DNA of 64,000 nucleotides from an uncultured Opitutales bacterium (GCA_944389885.1 CALXNZ010000005.1:62001-126000), one strand, 5' to 3'. Counted from the stretch's first letter, positions 5,629 through 14,640 are shown. Numbers and translations: made by a program. Notes: generated from the letters alone by a model not told the origin.

Positions 5629-7425
5629 ATGAAACTATCGTTTTTCTTTTTATTGGCATTTGTTTATTCCTTATCGGCGTTTTGCGTGGAGCGCGCAGAC
5701 TTAATAGTAAAACTTAAAGACGGTTCCACTGTAAAAAAAGTGTTTGATGCTGTCGAGATTGAAAAAAATACGAGGCGCATTTCTGTGCCTAAATCTGCTA
5801 TACCCGAAGGGTTTGAATGGTTTGAGATTATTGCTGACAACGCGTGGGCAAAAAATGGAGAGCAAGGGTTCTGGATTTTCGGCAGGGGTGAAATGGGAAC
5901 TTTTAGATTAAACGAAGGAGCCTATATGAATAGGGAGGCTCAGATTCCTATTTACGGAATGAGAACTCCCCGCGAAACTTTTTTGGCTGTTGTACGGGGA
6001 ATGCAGATGGACATGAAGATGTGCGTGGACGTCAAAGACGGTATATACAGAATTAGGCCACGGTGGAATTTTAGAAATATGGGTTATGCTCCGTACGAAG
6101 ACATCATAATAGACTTTATTTCACTTTTTGGGGAAGACGCGAATTATTCAGGAATGGGTAGGGCGTACCGCAAGATGCAGCTGGAAAGCGGCAAATTTAA
6201 GGCTTTTAAGGAGCGTATGAAAGATAATCGCGCTCTTAGGCAAATAGCAACAGCCATGCCGCATAGGATAGAGCCGCACGCCGTCATAACGGGCATGCGG
6301 GGTAAGAAAGTATCGGATTCTTTGGATTTAAAACCCGAAGATGTCGCTGGAAAGGCAAAGCCGATTTTGACATTTTCAAACGCCAAAAAATTTGTAGATG
6401 CCTTCAAGGCGGCGGGAATGGACGATGTCCATTTTATAGACGCGGGCTGGCAGTGCGGCGGCTATGACGGTAGATGCCCGCAGATTTTGCCAATAGAGGA
6501 ATGTTTGGGAGGGGAATCTGCCCTGAAGGAGTTTGTCAAGTACACGAAGGGCTTGGGGTATCAAATATGTTCTAATTCAAACCACACCGATGCCTATACA
6601 TGTTCGGATATGTGGAACGAAGACTATATATGCAAAAGATATGACGGATCTTTGTTCAGGGTTTGCGTTTTAAACGGCGGAAACATGTATTATGTATGCA
6701 CAAAACGCATTCTCGAGCTCTTTGTAATTAAACAGCTTGAGGAAACCCGCAAGCTTGGATACGAAGGCGTGCTTTATATCGACGTCTTCAGCGCGCGCCC
6801 CCCGGATCAGTGTTTCGATTCAAGGCATGCGGCAACCCGCAGGGAACAGGCCGATGCCCAAAATAAAATTCTTGAATATGCGCGCAAAATTTTTGGAGGG
6901 GCTGCAAGCGAGTGCGGCTATGAGCATTGTCTGCACAATCTCGATTTTGTGAATTATTTGGGCAGGCACATGTTGTACGGGGAAGGATTTGGAGACAAGA
7001 ATATCGCAAAGTGTTCATATTTTGAAGACAAGCCAAAGTACAATAGCTTGATAGACCGCATAGCCCCTCTTTGGGAAATAGTGTACCACGGCATCGTGCT
7101 GAGCAATCCCGATAAGTTTACGCAGGGATACAGGCCAAAAGGCTCCACAAATTTTCTCAGGCTTGTGGAATTCGGAGGGCGTCCAATATTTTATTCGGCG
7201 GCATATTCCCCGCAGGCTATAGCTAAATATAAAGAAATGTACGACGCATTTCAGCCCCTAAAGCATCTCCAGTTGGAATTTATCGAGGAGAACAAATCCC
7301 TCGATGAGGACGTCTATATTACGCGCTTCGGAAACGGAGAGGAGATTGTGGTCAATTACTCCATGAAGCCGTTTAAGTACAGGGAAAAATATGTGCCGCC
7401 GAGAGATTATTTATTGTTTAAATAG
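5629..7425 (+). CDS. Secreted glycosidase-like protein (resembles DUF5696 / TIM-barrel glycosidases)
   Basis: The frame opens at 5536, but the ATG at 5629 starts a typical signal peptide (MKLSFFFLLAFVYSLSAFC), giving 598 residues. An N-terminal beta-rich part of about 200 residues is followed by a probable (beta/alpha)8 barrel. Barrel-like motifs include HFIDAGWQCGGYDG (Asp271), YIDVFS (Asp385) and SECGYEH (Glu428). These acids at strand ends are what a retaining glycosidase would use. The closest family I can recall is DUF5696, related to GH clans acting on alpha-galactosides and alpha-GalNAc. The assignment and the catalytic residues are inference. Export to the periplasm or outside is likely. 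It diverges from another secreted protein gene. Confidence 0.6.
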   Translation: MKLSFFFLLAFVYSLSAFCVERADLIVKLKDGSTVKKVFDAVEIEKNTRRISVPKSAIPEGFEWFEIIADNAWAKNGEQGFWIFGRGEMGTFRLNEGAYMNREAQIPIYGMRTPRETFLAVVRGMQMDMKMCVDVKDGIYRIRPRWNFRNMGYAPYEDIIIDFISLFGEDANYSGMGRAYRKMQLESGKFKAFKERMKDNRALRQIATAMPHRIEPHAVITGMRGKKVSDSLDLKPEDVAGKAKPILTFSNAKKFVDAFKAAGMDDVHFIDAGWQCGGYDGRCPQILPIEECLGGESALKEFVKYTKGLGYQICSNSNHTDAYTCSDMWNEDYICKRYDGSLFRVCVLNGGNMYYVCTKRILELFVIKQLEETRKLGYEGVLYIDVFSARPPDQCFDSRHAATRREQADAQNKILEYARKIFGGAASECGYEHCLHNLDFVNYLGRHMLYGEGFGDKNIAKCSYFEDKPKYNSLIDRIAPLWEIVYHGIVLSNPDKFTQGYRPKGSTNFLRLVEFGGRPIFYSAAYSPQAIAKYKEMYDAFQPLKHLQLEFIEENKSLDEDVYITRFGNGEEIVVNYSMKPFKYREKYVPPRDYLLFK

Positions 7426-7596: not shown

Positions 7597-8190
7597 CTAT
7601 TTCATCTTTTCCAGCTCGGCCCTGAGGAATTCTCTGGCCCTGGAAAGGCGGCTCTTCACCGTTCCCACGCTTATGCCGAGCTTTTGGGCGATGTCTTCAT
7701 AGCTCATGTCGGCTTCGTTGCGGAGCTTCAAAACGTCGCCGTACTTCGGGGGAAGAGCGGCTATGGCTTTGGGCAAAAGGCTCATGAATTCCGCCGAAGC
7801 ATGCTCGTCGGCCGGAGACATGGAATCCGACGGTATTATTTCCGAAAACGTGAGAGCAGTTTCATCGCTTACAGGCATATCCAGAGATATGGACTCCGCC
7901 CTCTTGCGGCGCCACCAATACCAGTGCTTATTGCGGGCAAGGTTTGTGGCTATGTGGTAGAGCCATGTGGAAATGGAGCAATCTCCCCTAAAACTTGAAA
8001 TGCTCTTGCGCGCCCGCAGGAATGTGTCTTGGGCAACCTCTTCGGCGTCTTGCCTGTTGGAAAGCAGGCTGTTGGCGCGGTTGAATATTTTTTCCCAATG
8101 GCTGCTTACCAATTCTCCGAAAGCGGCATCGTCACCCTCTCTGAGGCGGCTAAGCATGTCGTCTGAACAGATTTCTTTCTGGTTAGGCAT
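7597..8190 (-). CDS. ECF-type RNA polymerase sigma-70 factor
   Basis: A 197-residue sigma factor with region 2 at about residues 25-95 (AEEVAQDTFLRARKSI and STWLYHIATNLARN) and region 4 at about 145-190. Region 4 shows a helix-turn-helix, YEDIAQKLGISVGTVKSRLS. Regions 1 and 3 are absent, as in the ECF group. No anti-sigma gene follows; the gene ends at its own terminator. It is transcribed divergently from the GTPase/GAP1 operon with 144 bases between the two starts, so control of that operon by this sigma factor is possible but not shown. It could equally be a general ECF of the SigE/CarQ type. Confidence 0.93.
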   Translation of the reverse strand: MPNQKEICSDDMLSRLREGDDAAFGELVSSHWEKIFNRANSLLSNRQDAEEVAQDTFLRARKSISSFRGDCSISTWLYHIATNLARNKHWYWWRRKRAESISLDMPVSDETALTFSEIIPSDSMSPADEHASAEFMSLLPKAIAALPPKYGDVLKLRNEADMSYEDIAQKLGISVGTVKSRLSRAREFLRAELEKMK

Positions 8191-8334
8191 AAATGTCGTC
8201 TTTCTTTTCTCTTGATTTAATTAGACCTTATCTAAGGCTTTTCGTTCAATTTTTTCTTTCCGCCTTATTCTATCGTCAAAATGTGCCGAAAATTTTAAAA
8301 AAAAGTTTGCCAACAGGGAGATTTAAGGCGATAA

Positions 8335-10089
8335 TTGGACAAAACTGGATTTATGTTTGCCTTCAAAAAAACAAAGAAAGACAAGAACTTTGTCGCACTG
8401 TTTAACTGTCTCGACGCTTCAATCCAAAAAACCGAGATATTCCCGACGGAAATTTCGTCTTTTGAAAATGTGCCGTTGAGAATAGACGGAGCTCCGTTGT
8501 TGTGCGAAATTGTTAAAGATAGAGGAAAACTCATGCTCGTCCCAAAAGAAGCCGACGGCGTTCTCGTTAATGGAGCGCCGCTTTCGGCTCCGATAGAATT
8601 GGACGATATCCTGACTTTTCAGTACAAAGGCAAGCTGTTCTATCTCATAGGTTCCCAAGAAATGCTCGAACGGGCGCAGGCCATAGACATTTCAAAATGG
8701 CTCGTGTTCTTCGCGGAGACCGGAAAAATAGAGGACGAGGTCGCTTTCCCGCGCATTAAAAATTCCGTCTATAAGAGGGGTCTCAACGGGGTGGGCTTGG
8801 CTATATGCCCCAAAAATTTTGAATACGGATTTCTATTCTCGCAGGTTTTTGGCGACGGCATCGCAGATGAAAATGCGGCATTGGTGGCGCCAAATCTCTC
8901 TGAATCGACCGTCGCGGCGACTTGCCCGTTATGCTGGCTGAAGTTCGACGTCGGGGACGCCCTAAGCATAGCCGTCCACGAAAGCTTGCGCGGCGATCCC
9001 GTACTGGGGCCGGACGAAATGCTGCGCTTCCTCCCGACCGTGTTCAACAACGACGGCATACCGTTGGATCCCGCGGGAATGCCCGCCCCGGATATAGCGT
9101 GTCCGCACTGCCGCAAGAAACTTCCGCCTAACTACTTGGAGCTCGATCAGAAAATATTTTCGATAGTAGGGGCTCCGAGTTCCGGGAAGTCGTATTACCT
9201 GAGCGTTCTCATTCACGAACTTCAAGATAGCCTGTACAGGAATTTCGGCATTATTTTTAAAGACTTGGATCCCTCGGGGAACATGTTGCTGACGCAGATG
9301 AAGAACAGGCTCTTTTCCGCTTCAAAACCCGAAGACGCAATACTCGCCAAGACTGCCCTTGAAGGGGCGATGTACGAACGCTATCCACGATTCGGGAAAA
9401 TGGTGGCCCTTCCAAAGCCCATGACATACTCGCTTTCGCACGACGGCTGCGAAGATACGTCAGTGATATTTTACGACAACGCCGGCGAACATTTTGAACC
9501 CGGGCTCGATATAGAGGAATCGCCGGGGGCAATGCATGTGGCGAGTTCCGCGGCGATATTCTTCCTTTTCGACCCTGCGTCGAACCGAAACTTCAAACGC
9601 GCTCTTACCGGCTATCCCGATCCCCAGTTGACAATAGGCGGAAGGTTGGACCAGCAAGACACCATACTCTCTGAGATGGAAGTCCGCATAAAGCGAATGT
9701 TAGGTCTTGAATCATCAAAGCGCGTGGATACGCCTATGGTCTTTATAATAGGCAAATGCGACATCTGGCAGCATCTGCTGGAATCTCCGCTTGAGCCTGT
9801 GGTGATAGACGGGAAACTCGACCTGAAAGCCGTCGATCGCAACAGCGAAAAATTGCGCAAGTTCTTGTCGGGTCTCGACTCTGCGGTGGTGGCTGCCTCC
9901 CAGGGGATAAGCAACAACGTGAAATTTTTTGCGGTGAGCGCCCTCGGACATTCTCCTGTTATGATAGAATCGGGAGAATGCGCGGGAAAAATCGCGCCGA
10001 TACCCCAGAAACTAAATCCGATAAACGTGGACATACCCACGATATGGGCGCTGTCGCAAGTCACTGACATGATACCTCTGGCGGAATAA
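8335..10089 (+). CDS. FHA-like / zinc-ribbon / P-loop GTPase-like protein (DO-GTPase2-like)
   Basis: 584 residues from a TTG start at 8335, chosen because AAGGCG lies about 6 bases upstream. The ATG at 8353 has no ribosome binding site. Residues 1-110 look like a divergent FHA beta sandwich (VNGAPLSAPIELDDILTF). Four cysteines, C197-P-L-C200 and C256-P-H-C259, form a split zinc ribbon. The P-loop domain follows: Walker A GAPSSGKS at 279-286, a DNAGE switch/Walker B-like motif at 381-385, and a base-specificity motif GKCD at 473-476. This order fits the DO-GTPase2 family of predicted GTPase-centred conflict/signalling systems. Nucleotide preference is inferred. The next gene starts 5 bases later and encodes the family's usual partner, a GAP1-N2 protein. 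Confidence 0.7.
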   Translation: MDKTGFMFAFKKTKKDKNFVALFNCLDASIQKTEIFPTEISSFENVPLRIDGAPLLCEIVKDRGKLMLVPKEADGVLVNGAPLSAPIELDDILTFQYKGKLFYLIGSQEMLERAQAIDISKWLVFFAETGKIEDEVAFPRIKNSVYKRGLNGVGLAICPKNFEYGFLFSQVFGDGIADENAALVAPNLSESTVAATCPLCWLKFDVGDALSIAVHESLRGDPVLGPDEMLRFLPTVFNNDGIPLDPAGMPAPDIACPHCRKKLPPNYLELDQKIFSIVGAPSSGKSYYLSVLIHELQDSLYRNFGIIFKDLDPSGNMLLTQMKNRLFSASKPEDAILAKTALEGAMYERYPRFGKMVALPKPMTYSLSHDGCEDTSVIFYDNAGEHFEPGLDIEESPGAMHVASSAAIFFLFDPASNRNFKRALTGYPDPQLTIGGRLDQQDTILSEMEVRIKRMLGLESSKRVDTPMVFIIGKCDIWQHLLESPLEPVVIDGKLDLKAVDRNSEKLRKFLSGLDSAVVAASQGISNNVKFFAVSALGHSPVMIESGECAGKIAPIPQKLNPINVDIPTIWALSQVTDMIPLAE

Positions 10090-10094
10090 CAGAC

Positions 10095-11396
10095 ATGGCG
10101 TTCCAACTCGTATATACAAGCTATCCGGTTTCCTTATCCGTGGGGCGCAGCGGGTTTTCGACTGTGGCGCGATCTTCCGATATGCCGGAAAAGCTTGTAG
10201 TGAAAGTTGAAAAATGCGGAATCTACGATTCGCGCGCGCCTATAATATATTCCCATAGAATAGTGGAGGCAAACGGCGGGAAATGGCACGTCCTGAGCAG
10301 GGTTTGCGATTCCGGAACAGATTATACAAATCGCAACAACTACATAGCCCACCATTTGGTCATTTCCTCCGAGGAGGCTATGAAACTTGAAGTTGTGTCT
10401 GCGGATATACTCTTGAACTGGGGCGGATGGAGGGATTCCTGGAATGAGGAGCCGAAATATTTGCCGGAAGTAGATTTGTCGGGATTGGCGCGAACCTCCC
10501 GTCTGCCCGCGTCGAAATGGGCTGCAATTTTTGGAGACGCCGGTTGCGCGGCTATTTTGGAAAATTCTCCGGCTTGGATTAGGGCTGAGCCTTCCGACTC
10601 CAAAAGGCTCCTTGAACTATTTGGAGAAAGTCTCTGCGTGTTTTTTAACATTGGGGATTCGTGGCAGGCCACTTATACGACTTTCTTTTGTCCCGGAGAC
10701 AGCCCGCAAGATTTCATGTGGCGCGCGATACCTTTTGTTCCGGACCAGGGCGTATGTGCGGATTTGGTTTCCGGAAAATGCGTTTTTCCGCATGGGCGTC
10801 CGGCCGATTATGCCCGCACTGGAATTCTCACCAATACCGAGCGCTTAAACTTGAAAGTTTCAAAACCCCTGAAAATAGAAAGAAAATATAGGGTTGTTGA
10901 AACGCAAAACAAAAAAACTTCAAATATTGTCACGGCGGCACTAATTGTATCGATTTTATTTTTATTGACAGCAATAGGGGTCTTGGCGGCGATACTGTTT
11001 TCTGGTTCTTCCTCGCCGTCCGCAGGGGAACCTCTTGAATCGTTGGAACCGTCTAATATCTCCCAAAATACTTCATATGGCGCAAATTCCATTTCGGGGT
11101 TAAAGAGTAAAATAGCCTCGCTGATTGAGTCCGGAGATGTTATGACGGCTCTCTCGCTGTGGGATTCTTCGCCATTGGCCGCAAATGATCCGCATTATAG
11201 AATGTCGCTATTGAGTTCTGCGGGGAGGACCGTTGACAAACTTTTATTGTCGGCGGAAGAATTGCTTGGAAATTCCGATTTGGCGGGGACCCGCCGCGAT
11301 TTATATATAGCCGAAAGAATATTGCAATGCGAGGAAATCCCGCGCAGGGCCGACAGGCTTAAAAATTTAAACACACTTAAGGACAAGATAAAATGA
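10095..11396 (+). CDS. GAP1-N2 domain protein with transmembrane anchor (GTPase-associated protein)
   Basis: 433 residues. The N-terminal 135 residues match the GAP1-N2 pattern: YTS at 7-9, GFSTVARS at 20-27, GGKWHVLSRV, and the hallmark DYTNRNNYIAHH at 76-87. The middle part, to about residue 260, is consistent with a short GAP1-M-like region. One membrane helix spans about residues 278-303. The C-terminal 130 residues are soluble and helical and look TPR-like. GAP1 proteins are named for their link to DO-GTPases; their biochemical role is not established. The stop codon overlaps the next ATG (ATGA), so translation of the two is coupled. Membrane anchoring suggests the complex sits at the inner membrane. 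Confidence 0.7.
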   Translation: MAFQLVYTSYPVSLSVGRSGFSTVARSSDMPEKLVVKVEKCGIYDSRAPIIYSHRIVEANGGKWHVLSRVCDSGTDYTNRNNYIAHHLVISSEEAMKLEVVSADILLNWGGWRDSWNEEPKYLPEVDLSGLARTSRLPASKWAAIFGDAGCAAILENSPAWIRAEPSDSKRLLELFGESLCVFFNIGDSWQATYTTFFCPGDSPQDFMWRAIPFVPDQGVCADLVSGKCVFPHGRPADYARTGILTNTERLNLKVSKPLKIERKYRVVETQNKKTSNIVTAALIVSILFLLTAIGVLAAILFSGSSSPSAGEPLESLEPSNISQNTSYGANSISGLKSKIASLIESGDVMTALSLWDSSPLAANDPHYRMSLLSSAGRTVDKLLLSAEELLGNSDLAGTRRDLYIAERILQCEEIPRRADRLKNLNTLKDKIK

Positions 11397-14149
11397 CACC
11401 GCAACTGGTAATATTGAAAATACAGTCTCTTTTAGCGCGTCGTTCCGAGATGAGCTTTATGGATAGGCGCGCTCTGGCAATGGAGTATTCGAGATTATGC
11501 GCCCAAGTGCAGTCGGATCTTGAGCATTGCGTGGCCATGATAAAGTCTGGGCGCGAATATGCGGCTCTTCAGGTGGCAGAGTCTTCGGGACTATTGGACG
11601 CTATAAATGTTCTCACATTTGCGGAGCTTCCGGCGTGGCGGGAATTTTGCGAGGTCAACGACTATCCGATGACCCAGCCGTTCGACGAGACTCAAGTTGG
11701 GCTTGTAATGGGCTTGTATTCACGAGGCATAACCCAGGCGCATCCGCTTTATCGAGATTATCGCAGGGCTATGCGCCTGCACAGGTTCGACGAGGCGCTC
11801 GGCGTAATACGCACTATAACGCGCATAAATTCATATGACGCCGAAGCGAGATCTGAATATGCGCGCTTGCGCAAGTTTGTAGCCAACAAGAAATTAGACG
11901 TCCTTTTGAGGGCTCTCCGCGAATCCGACGAGGAAAAGGTCGCGCGTTTGTGCGACGAGTTGGAGCCGGAGGCGGAAATAATTTCCGACGATCCTGTGTG
12001 GCAGGAGGCTCTGTCTTTTAGGAAAAAAGCCGTATCGAAATTGAACGCCCAGGATTGTTCCAAAATAATATCTGAGTTGAAAAATCTCGACGTAGATAGC
12101 GATTGGGAGCGCGCGATAGAGCTCATATCGGAGTTTAATATGAAGAAGGGGGATTTTACTCCGGCTTCCGATATAGAATTTGCGGATTCCGTTTTATCAA
12201 AATCTGCGGAGATACAAAACCGCAAGCTTACCGAAGAGCGCTCCGCGCGCGCCTGCAACGCGATAGCGGCTCTCTTGGAAAATCCGCAGGGCTCTCGCAG
12301 GGAGCGAATAAAAACTCTTGAGAGTCTGATTTCGGAGGCGGGGGAGGGCATCTCTCCGACCCTCGAAAAACGGGCTAAATCCAAAATAATTGCGATGAAA
12401 ATAGCCCAAAGAATAGCGTTTTGGACGGTATTCGGGGCTTCCGCTGCGGCTGTATTGGCGGTTTGCGGGTTTATATGGTTCACGCACGCACAGAACGAAC
12501 GCCGCAAGATAACACTTGCGGCGGAGGCGGAACTTTCTTCTATAGAGTCGCTCGACAGCTATTCGGCTTTGTCGCGCCGCATAGCGGATTTTGAAAAAAT
12601 ATACGCCAGCATACTGTCAGAGCCTTCCATAGCCTCGCGTCTTTCTGCGGCCAAGCAGACCGTGGAAGAATTGGGGGTGAAACTTGGGAATCTGGAGAAG
12701 AAATTGGCCTCGTTTGAAAAATTGGAATGGAACAAGCTCGCCTCCGCGGATCTCCTAGCTTCGCGCAAGGATTTAAGCGAATTTGAAAAATCGCTGAAGG
12801 CGGCGCCGCGCCGTGAATCGCTGCCTTTTGACGAACGCATATCGGCTCTTGCAAAACGCGCAAATTCCGCGGTGTCGGAAAGGAAACGCGAGATATCGCG
12901 CGAATTTCGCGCATTGCTCGACTCATTTAAAGCCGAGGTTTCTAAATATGTTTCCGGGGGCAAACCCAACGCCGCATTGGAATCTAAAATAGATTCTATT
13001 AGAGCCGCCATGTCCAATTTAGTTTCCGACGAACTCTCCGAACTCAGGCCTTCCGCCTCCGATGTGGCGGCCTATGGAGACGCCGCGGTAAAAATGGACG
13101 AAGCTTCGTCAAAGTTTGAGGCCAAATCGGCATTGGAGTCGGCATTGGCTTCGGCGAGAACTCCTGCGGATTATGTAAAGGCCCTTACAAATCTAAAAAA
13201 TAGCGCGTCGGTTTCGGCGTCTGAAGTTTCCCGCATAACTGCCGCGGCATTGGAGTCGGAAAATATCTCGCCGGCTTTTCTCTCTCAGTTCGGTTCTCCG
13301 CTATTGGCTTCCGCGCCAACCTCTAATATTCCCTTTTCAAAGGGAGTTCTTCCCCCAAATCCCATGTTTGACAACGTCTATAAATATCTCAAGGGAGGAA
13401 ATTCCGTTGTCTATACGTCCGGGAAGGTATCGGAACGCACCCAGAAATGGGAGGGAGGCTCTGAAATAATGCAGGAGGCAAACCAAATAGGTTTGGGCGG
13501 AAAAATAAGCAAATCGGTCTATCGCCTAAATAATACGCGCGGCCGCGCCCCGCGCGGAGAAATACTCACAGGAGGCAATTTGTCGGCGGAGTCGGAGCTC
13601 GCGGCTTCCGCGGCAAAAATCGCATCGGATAAATCGCTTATAGCGGCTTTAGATTTTGTTCGGGCTTCCAATGTGGATCCGGTTTTTAAGGCTTTGATTG
13701 AACGCGCAATATTCCGCAAAATGGAGGCGAATCCCGCAGAGTCGGGATTGCTGTATTCGCCTTCGGCCGCGGCTCATAAGAGTAAACTCGACAAAGTCGC
13801 TGGAGCCCTCTTTGACTATTCGTGGGTGTTTGAAAATCCATCGCGCCGCAATCTTATAAAGAGTGAATTATATTCGGGCCAATTTAAGCCGTATGCCGAT
13901 GAGGCTGAGCGCATGCGCAGGGCTGTCGGCATCGCGAAGGGAAAAATGCCCAAGTTTATAGGCTATGTAGACGCCTCGGGAACCAATAGGCTTTTTGCAA
14001 AGCCCACCGGAGCCATTTGGGCCATAGATGGCGCAACCGGCAAATTGTCACTCTTGGGCAATAATAAGCCGGCGCCTTATTCTCCGATATTCTCGGAGCA
14101 GGCGAGCTTTTCGGAAATCCTTAAACAGGCGGAATCCGCAAAGAAATGA
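11393..14149 (+). CDS. Large membrane-anchored coiled-coil protein of the GTPase operon, unknown family
   Basis: Not recognised as a named family. 918 residues, almost all helical. Residues 1-330 form a soluble helical, repeat-like region. One hydrophobic helix lies at about 341-363 (FWTVFGASAAAVLAVCGFIW). Residues 370-640 are a long charged, heptad-like stretch rich in Ala, Ser, Glu, Lys and Arg. The C-terminal 260 residues are more globular and end in a small beta-containing unit (GFVDASGTNRL-like and GAIWAIDGATGKL). The single membrane helix puts the coiled coil on one side of the membrane and the repeat region on the other. It overlaps both neighbours by ATGA, so it belongs to the same complex or pathway as the GTPase and GAP1-N2 proteins. 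Start 11393 is fixed by that overlap. Confidence 0.65.
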   Translation: MTPQLVILKIQSLLARRSEMSFMDRRALAMEYSRLCAQVQSDLEHCVAMIKSGREYAALQVAESSGLLDAINVLTFAELPAWREFCEVNDYPMTQPFDETQVGLVMGLYSRGITQAHPLYRDYRRAMRLHRFDEALGVIRTITRINSYDAEARSEYARLRKFVANKKLDVLLRALRESDEEKVARLCDELEPEAEIISDDPVWQEALSFRKKAVSKLNAQDCSKIISELKNLDVDSDWERAIELISEFNMKKGDFTPASDIEFADSVLSKSAEIQNRKLTEERSARACNAIAALLENPQGSRRERIKTLESLISEAGEGISPTLEKRAKSKIIAMKIAQRIAFWTVFGASAAAVLAVCGFIWFTHAQNERRKITLAAEAELSSIESLDSYSALSRRIADFEKIYASILSEPSIASRLSAAKQTVEELGVKLGNLEKKLASFEKLEWNKLASADLLASRKDLSEFEKSLKAAPRRESLPFDERISALAKRANSAVSERKREISREFRALLDSFKAEVSKYVSGGKPNAALESKIDSIRAAMSNLVSDELSELRPSASDVAAYGDAAVKMDEASSKFEAKSALESALASARTPADYVKALTNLKNSASVSASEVSRITAAALESENISPAFLSQFGSPLLASAPTSNIPFSKGVLPPNPMFDNVYKYLKGGNSVVYTSGKVSERTQKWEGGSEIMQEANQIGLGGKISKSVYRLNNTRGRAPRGEILTGGNLSAESELAASAAKIASDKSLIAALDFVRASNVDPVFKALIERAIFRKMEANPAESGLLYSPSAAAHKSKLDKVAGALFDYSWVFENPSRRNLIKSELYSGQFKPYADEAERMRRAVGIAKGKMPKFIGYVDASGTNRLFAKPTGAIWAIDGATGKLSLLGNNKPAPYSPIFSEQASFSEILKQAESAKK

Positions 14150-14640
14150 CATCGTTTAAACTCAGATGGAAAGGCCGCGTAAGCGGCCCGTTTACCATTG
14201 ATGCGATTCGTGAAATGCTCGCAGACGGTCGCATAGGGTTGATGTATCAGATTGAATTGCATTCGGGGAAATGGATATTCTTGAAGGATTTTCCGTTGGA
14301 TAATCCCGCGGTTCCAAATTTAAATCCTCTTGAATCTCGGGAACCGGAAATGCAAGATATTGACGATTGCGCCCTCAGCCAAGAATTGCAAACCGATGGC
14401 AAGAAAGAGTCAAAATCGGAAGACAGGTCGGATAGCGACGCAATGACTTATCTTTTGTACGCACTTTGCGGGGCTTCGTTTCTATCTCCTTTTATATGCG
14501 CGGCCTCGCTCGCATTGGCGGGGGCTTTCTATTCGCAGGGACGGCGCTCTACGGCCTTTGGAACGGCGGCTCTGTCATTGGTTATGGGGGTCTCGGGGTG
14601 GCTCTTCTTTAAGTTTTTGTATCCGATAATTTCCGCATAG
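14146..14640 (+). CDS. GYF_2 domain membrane protein
   Basis: 164 residues. The N-terminal 55 residues match the bacterial GYF_2 domain: an early tryptophan, the GPFTIDAIREMLADGRI segment, and a later aromatic GKWIFLKDF. GYF_2 domains are thought to bind peptides, often proline-rich ones. A charged linker (residues 60-95) leads to two membrane helices near the C-terminus (GASFLSPFICAASLALAGAF and TAALSLVMGVSGWLFF). The start overlaps the stop of the 918-residue protein gene (ATGA), so this is the fourth gene of the GTPase operon. It may recruit or tether the other members at the inner membrane, which is inference. Confidence 0.75.
   Translation: MTSFKLRWKGRVSGPFTIDAIREMLADGRIGLMYQIELHSGKWIFLKDFPLDNPAVPNLNPLESREPEMQDIDDCALSQELQTDGKKESKSEDRSDSDAMTYLLYALCGASFLSPFICAASLALAGAFYSQGRRSTAFGTAALSLVMGVSGWLFFKFLYPIISA

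Follow-up and report, generated by a model that had tools for sequence, protein, structure and literature searches.

What does the four-gene operon in this stretch of the genome of an uncultured gut Opitutales bacterium do, and is it a system that has not been described before? The window (i.e., the whole 64,000-nucleotide stretch of DNA that was analyzed) carries four open reading frames on the plus strand (8335-10089, 10095-11396, 11393-14149, and 14146-14640), separated by a 5-base gap and then by two ATGA overlaps of 4 bases, which confirms the spacing of 5, -4, and -4 bases given in the original prediction. The operon and its divergent neighbor comprise the following features:

7597-8190, minus strand: ECF sigma factor gene (197 aa; Pfam Sigma70_r4_2, 8.6e-18, and r2, 4.9e-12)
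8222-8250, minus strand: ECF-type promoter-like element before the sigma gene, TTGAAC-17-GTCTAA
8307-8335, plus strand: sigma-70-like operon promoter, TTGCCA-17-GATAAT (consensus match only)
8353-10089, plus strand, probable start: GTPase gene of the DO-GTPase2 type (584 aa when TTG 8335 is taken as the start)
10095-11396, plus strand: GAP1-N2 gene (433 aa)
11393-14149, plus strand: bitopic scaffold gene (918 aa, no known family)
14146-14640, plus strand: gene for a GYF_2-like domain with a membrane hairpin (164 aa)

The GTPase gene probably starts at ATG 8353 rather than at TTG 8335, because Met7 (numbered from TTG 8335, as are all GTPase residues below) is nearly invariant among homologs and because the promoter overlaps the TTG and would put the transcription start downstream of it. 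The chance expectation of the TTGCCA-17-GATAAT element in the window is 0.06. No Rfam RNA was detected between positions 7000 and 16000.

The first protein carries the predicted motifs GAPSSGKS, DNAGE (381-385), and GKCD (473-476), and the catalytic G1, G3 (DNAGE), and G4 (GKCD) letters, as well as the DxxGE pattern, are invariant in an alignment of 19 homologs. The window protein itself scores 19.9 bits against the DO-GTPase2 Pfam model, below the cut-off of 27, and the model is matched by all 19 aligned GTPases (best E value, 9e-7). These matches in the relatives, together with a TRAFAC-type fold, bear out the DO-GTPase2 identity, and nothing placed the protein outside the DO-GTPase families. 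An AlphaFold2 model built from the 19-sequence alignment (mean pLDDT, 83) consists of four parts, namely, an FHA-like domain, a GYF-like segment, a zinc ribbon, and the GTPase domain. When the GTPase and GAP1 profiles were searched against the sequences of solved structures, nothing informative was returned; the predicted folds, in contrast, could be compared with profit. The modeled GTPase domain (270-584) is of the TRAFAC type, with YcjX as its best structural match (Z 14.3 over 246 residues), followed by Arl/Rab proteins (Z 12 to 13), Rag/Gtr (12.6), and MglA (11.8). The zinc ribbon (CPLC at 197-200 and CPHC at 256-259, invariant in the 19 sequences) is one split ribbon, not clearly two. 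A GYF-like domain at about 118-165 is predicted from the alignment of this segment with the plain GYF_2-like segments of relatives (L169, L173, L172, and L058). The FHA-like domain (residues about 12-107) resembles EmbR (Z 12.3; rmsd, 2.1; 95 residues). The residues by which canonical FHA domains read phosphopeptides, GR and S..H, are missing from it, and its segment ISSFENVPLRIDGAPLLCEI stands where L166 has IGRAANNDIVIPDNSVSSLHA. Canonical FHA domains are found in some relatives, including L166 (Pfam, 4e-12), which has GR and S..H, and L169, which also has these residues. Because the window domain has lost them, an ordinary phosphothreonine reading is unlikely, and the earlier proposal that the GTPase senses a phosphorylated signal is not supported, even though the domain itself is present.

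The 918-aa third protein matches no Pfam family and is conserved across families (23 sequences aligned). It proved to be a one-pass protein, as predicted, with a membrane helix at ~343-365 flanked by helical parts, of which the C-terminal one is long. The N-terminal part is probably cytosolic, since Lys/Arg-rich residues precede the helix, and the long C-terminal part is probably periplasmic. The coiled coil proposed for this protein receives at most mild support, from a crude heptad test (33 windows versus 5.5 in shuffles, for which the maximum was 24). In the fourth protein, a GYF_2-like domain at about 1-50 is followed by a predicted C-terminal membrane hairpin. The window copy scores 15.9 bits against the GYF_2 model, below the cut-off of 25.8, and the assignment is carried by relatives (8 of 17 fourth-gene proteins match; best E value, 6e-12). 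A strict hydropathy cut-off gives one membrane helix in the GYF protein, whereas most relatives have the two that were claimed. The predicted helices in the GAP1, scaffold, and GYF proteins agree with the proposed membrane location, and a putative four-protein complex is plausible.

The GAP1-N2 and GTPase genes were found in 18 of the 19 genomes of the family, with the core locus single-copy in each; the sole genome without either gene (G009) is a one-contig genome of the same genus. GAP1-N2 is missing from most genomes of the order and of the phylum, being carried by 43 of 177 and 49 of 289, respectively. In the phylum sample, GAP1-N2 lies directly downstream at 47 of the 54 long GTPase places, and the scaffold gene is present at 36. 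We also compiled 80 named loci from Opitutales and Opitutae metagenome-assembled genomes, termite-gut Puniceicoccales, Chthoniobacteraceae, and Spartobacteria, 75 of which have GAP1, 63 the GTPase-GAP1-scaffold series, and 51 all four genes; part of the shortfall is due to contig ends. The gene order is also found in other families and classes. The four genes recur together in dozens of genomes, and thus the arrangement is not due to chance, and the survey did not contradict the expectation that they are kept together. GTPase distances follow RpoB distances (Mantel r, 0.48; 0 of 2,000 permutations; 26 genomes), which is consistent with mainly vertical descent of the GTPase, although an r of 0.48 indicates loosely vertical descent and is not proof. 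Partial versions were also seen. Two loci of family f19 (genus g37; L071 and L073) encode a GAP1-N2 protein of ~470 aa with one transmembrane (TM) helix, with no GTPase or scaffold detected beside it, and five termite-gut Puniceicoccales loci (L136, L138, L139, L141, and L145) have the GTPase with no GAP1 or scaffold detected nearby. In G006, an apparent open frame of 13,583 codons that covers GAP1 is explained by a run of N bases and was discarded as a giant fusion.

Our preferred reading, to which we give an even chance of being correct, is that the operon is a chromosomally fixed inner-membrane GTPase switch with a scaffold, serving the envelope and not primarily immunity. The locus looks like standing cell machinery rather than an optional defense system, since the genes stay together in relatives, at times next to proton-motor-like genes. 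In relatives outside families f1 and f19, a MotA/TolQ/ExbB protein (A5; PF01618, 1e-8 to 5e-11, above the cut-off) is encoded downstream of the GYF gene, followed by two one-TM proteins (A6 and A7) whose helix starts at an invariant Asp. A6 and A7 are mutually homologous (hhalign, 97%, 1e-10). TolR, ExbD, and MotB models did not match them by sequence, giving coiled-coil noise only, and they are called TolR-like here because of their position, their single N-terminal TM helix with the invariant Asp, and their mutual homology. These partners carry the motifs FFAFQDIIT and LLLDTMCNTFGG, have no Pfam model, and represent a possible new stator family. In the sampled genomes, the A5 family occurs at 23 places, 19 of them within the GTPase operon, and all 22 genomes with this family also have the GTPase (hypergeometric, 3e-19, a value that ignores relatedness). 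Loci with A5 and one or two partners include L164, L154, L167, L172, L173, and L059 to L061, as well as L142, L150, L151, L155, L156, and L168. The phylum survey also turned up another class of MotA_ExbB proteins, which are larger (450- to 530-codon frames; 115 to 215 bits to the A5 profile; e.g., G240, G343, and G404) and occur mostly in genomes without the GTPase.

Family f54 has a different extension. There, the operon is followed by a PilM-like gene (PilM_2, 6e-16 in L166, 1.4e-9 in L170, and weak in L175) and by a PilO-like gene that falls below the cut-off. The three loci run from GTPase, GAP1-N2, and scaffold to the PilM-like protein (~600 aa, one TM helix), the PilO-like protein, and another one-TM protein. 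In the window's own family, no ExbB or PilM gene is linked to the operon, and in the window's genome no recognizable A5 to A7 motor genes occur elsewhere, the six MotA_ExbB places looking ordinary; the motor link may therefore not apply here.

The explanation that ranks second, and that we regard as unlikely, is that defense is the main role, i.e., that the operon is a conflict (antiphage or abortive-infection) system in which the GTPase and GAP1 would set a threshold and the membrane proteins would be the effectors, breaching the membrane when the cell is infected. Kaur et al. propose a conflict role for DO-GTPase/GAP1 systems, and the core pair is the one that they describe (PMC7159879). The window's genome also contains a second DO-GTPase locus (L157:4494-14615; G000:C1:202493-212614), which encodes a distant GTPase (603 aa; 37% identity to relatives), a 1,567-aa protein whose N-terminal part is trypsin-like and whose C-terminal part is scaffold-like, and, divergently, a 1,184-aa TIR protein (Pfam TIR_2, 4e-14; PADLOC ThsB-like, 1.6e-6), and which is a candidate conflict system by its gene set. 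Outputs moreover differ among families (trypsin, ExbB, and PilM), as effectors do; in L173, GYF is fused to trypsin, a combination that Kaur et al. note for planctomycetes. The window locus nevertheless fits the conflict setting assumed in the original prediction poorly, because it is single-copy and nearly universal in its family, unlike patchy defense genes. The second locus, present in 1 of the 19 family genomes, shows how an accessory version looks, and the contrast between the fixed operon and this patchy, trypsin- and TIR-bearing paralog points to another role for the former. The four window proteins contain neither a nuclease, protease, or TIR domain nor any further domain of a toxic kind, and none of the four is matched by PADLOC models, including those for Zorya. 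ExbB-type channels also occur in the Zorya defense system, which is made up of the MotA-like ZorA and ZorB with ZorCD or ZorE; the relatives' ExbB matches ZorA weakly (3.6e-6), and its partners match no ZorB model.

Slightly less probable than defense is an envelope-stress module, in which the ECF sigma factor and a one-TM anti-sigma-like partner would monitor the GTPase/scaffold machine or signal what state it is in. The sigma gene is divergent from the operon at 55 of the 80 named loci and is linked to it in families f1, f19, and f23, and in most relatives it is followed by an anti-sigma-like gene (157 to 173 aa, one TM helix; zf-HC2 match weak, E value of 0.04). An ECF-type promoter lies ahead of the sigma gene in f1: the element in the window's genome was matched as TTGAACGAAAAGCCTTAGATAAGGTCTAA at G000:C5:70221-70249 (minus strand), and a similar TGAAAC-N-GTCTA occurs in nine f1 loci, a pattern that suggests autoregulation of the sigma gene. 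In addition, a DO-GTPase is reported next to some PSP operons and is predicted to act in membrane stress (PMC11237479). Against such a module, many families have the operon with no sigma gene, the operon's own promoter is sigma-70-like and not of the ECF type, and the window's anti-sigma-like gene is not adjacent to the sigma gene, the nearest homolog (44%) being at G000:C11:47151-47465. A regulon based on the ECF promoter was considered and rejected, as the genome-wide pattern search gave 5 hits versus 3 in the control.

The GAP1-N2 identity of the second protein is secure (Pfam, 71.3 bits, 1.1e-19; cut-off, 24), and the predicted hallmark DYTNRNNYIAHH (76-87) is present, with catalytic letters invariant over 23 homologs. 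The protein is predicted to comprise a longin/DENN-like cytosolic part (1-258), the single membrane helix that had been predicted (~280-302), and a helical C-terminal part that is probably periplasmic. There was no Pfam match to GAP1-M or GAP1-C; the middle domain is modeled to ~258, and the C-terminal part consists of the TM helix and further helices. In the predicted model (pLDDT, 87), strands 2-10 and 20-27, helix 32-41, and strands 51-59, 62-75, and 81-91, followed by helices, give the order b-b-a-b-b-b-a-a, which is that of longin domains. TagF, whose target in type VI secretion is an FHA protein, was the sole Foldseek match at an E value of <0.001, spanning residues 1-254. By VIA-align, residues 1-135 resemble a Lokiarchaeal longin (Z 7.7), GATOR1 chains (7.0 to 7.4), FLCN (6.7), and Lst4 (6.6), and residues 1-258 resemble DENND10 (7.0) and TagF (6.3); these longin/DENN values (6.2 to 7.7) are middling, since VIA-align scores below Z 8 may reflect merely a common arrangement, and one PAS domain (6.7 against 1-135) is level with the longin matches. 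Evidence from Arg80 is independent of the fold scores. Of 109 distinct GAP1-N2 domains, 104 have Arg at position 80 (four have a gap and one has Gly), which the model places in the loop joining strands 4 and 5. DENN GAPs are proposed to be marked by an Arg in the longin subdomain that lies between b4 and b5 and is their arginine finger (PMC12803157). Because the near-invariant Arg80 occupies this position, GAP1 may be a true GTPase-activating protein, with R80 as its candidate arginine finger. We consider it improbable, and the least likely of the alternatives, that GAP1 is instead a TagF-like inhibitor or an exchange factor, as many DENN proteins are (PMC3521125), holding the FHA-GTPase at the membrane and blocking assembly until a signal arrives, as the TagF match and its link to an FHA protein might suggest, because neither activity needs the conserved Arg in the b4-b5 loop.

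If the operon is an envelope-serving switch, the GTP-bound DO-GTPase would use its FHA-like and GYF-like domains to dock at the membrane on the scaffold and the GYF protein, and GAP1, as a bacterial longin/DENN-like protein, would supply the Arg80 finger, speed hydrolysis, and release the GTPase, which has Glu in the place of the catalytic Gln of Ras. This cycle would control the assembly or activity of an envelope-spanning structure. The output in many relatives would probably be a proton channel of the MotA/TolQ/ExbB kind together with its two TolR-like partners, all of which the operon itself encodes, and in another family the PilM/PilO-like platform. Since no output gene is linked in the window lineage, the output there may be either the scaffold or a generic ExbB/TolR/pilus system at another place in the genome. 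The likely role would be in envelope or surface machinery (adhesion, motility-like movement, or envelope maintenance), that is, in housekeeping and not defense. A broader proposal is tentative, and we judge it considerably less probable than the switch itself: GAP1-N2 would be a bacterial longin/DENN-type arginine-finger GAP in an undescribed, Verrucomicrobiota-wide class of GTPase-controlled, proton-motive-force-driven envelope machines, in which the FHA-GYF-GTPase, GAP1-N2, and scaffold form the switch and the outputs are ExbB/TolR-like or PilM/PilO-like, in parallel with MglA/MglB and Agl-Glt of Myxococcus, the window holding a reduced core.

The placing of DO-GTPase/GAP1 systems among conflict systems is one for which we found no experiments. 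A nearly universal, single-copy version, linked in relatives to ExbB/TolR-like and pilus-platform genes, suggests envelope machinery as the role of some members of the family. With the predicted fold and the invariant Arg, one residue is enough to probe whether "GTPase-associated protein 1" activates a GTPase; if it does, GAP1 would add a bacterial branch to the longin/DENN regulators, most of which are known from eukaryotes and Asgard archaea.

Among known proteins, YcjX (DUF463) is closest to the GTPase domain as a whole; to our knowledge, it has no FHA, GYF, or zinc ribbon part and lies outside any such operon. GAP1 is comparable to the longin/DENN GAPs (NPRL2 in GATOR1, FLCN, and Avl9) and to TagF of type VI secretion in the predicted fold of residues 1-135 (longin) and 1-258 (DENN-like and TagF-like) and in the invariant Arg of the b4-b5 loop. 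It differs from those GAPs in being bacterial and membrane anchored, its GAP activity is putative, and it has no detectable sequence similarity to them. The MglA/MglB and Agl-Glt systems of Myxococcus xanthus are similar in their working only, as a membrane switch GTPase with a longin/roadblock-type partner. GltJ carries zinc ribbon and GYF domains. Further points of likeness are an FHA protein (GltG), one TolQ and two TolR homologs (Agl) (PMC3169522), and a large helical/TPR scaffold (GltI). No sequence homology was seen between the two; MglA, a small GTPase, is built of other domains and is resembled by the window domain only as a TRAFAC fold, and no linked TolQ/TolR set of the A5 to A7 type is found in the window's genome, which sets the operon apart from Agl-Glt.

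The closest known systems are those of Kaur et al. 2020 (PMC7159879), who described the DO-GTPase2/GAP1-N2 pair, so that the core pair was already known. They also record the pair in Verrucomicrobiae, as well as versions in planctomycetes that are joined to GYF domains and have trypsin or TM-rich regions, and the view of the locus as an undescribed system is thus not supported. The window operon shares with these systems a GTPase with a zinc ribbon and a Walker-B Glu, a GAP1-N2 directly downstream with a C-terminal TM helix, a GYF/TM partner, and the verrucomicrobial setting. It differs in having no FNIII-repeat protein (no FNIII match in the four proteins) and no recognizable effector; of the variable effector components of those systems (tubulin, HSP70, kinase, SLATT, trypsin, and GYF), it carries a GYF_2-like domain with its hairpin and nothing enzymatic or toxic. 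The FHA-like domain on the GTPase, the conserved 918-aa scaffold gene, the linkages to ECF sigma, ExbB/TolR-like, and PilM/PilO-like genes, and the longin/DENN reading of GAP1 do not appear in the passages of that paper that were consulted, and, compared with the systems described there, the window locus is not accessory but single-copy and nearly universal in its family.
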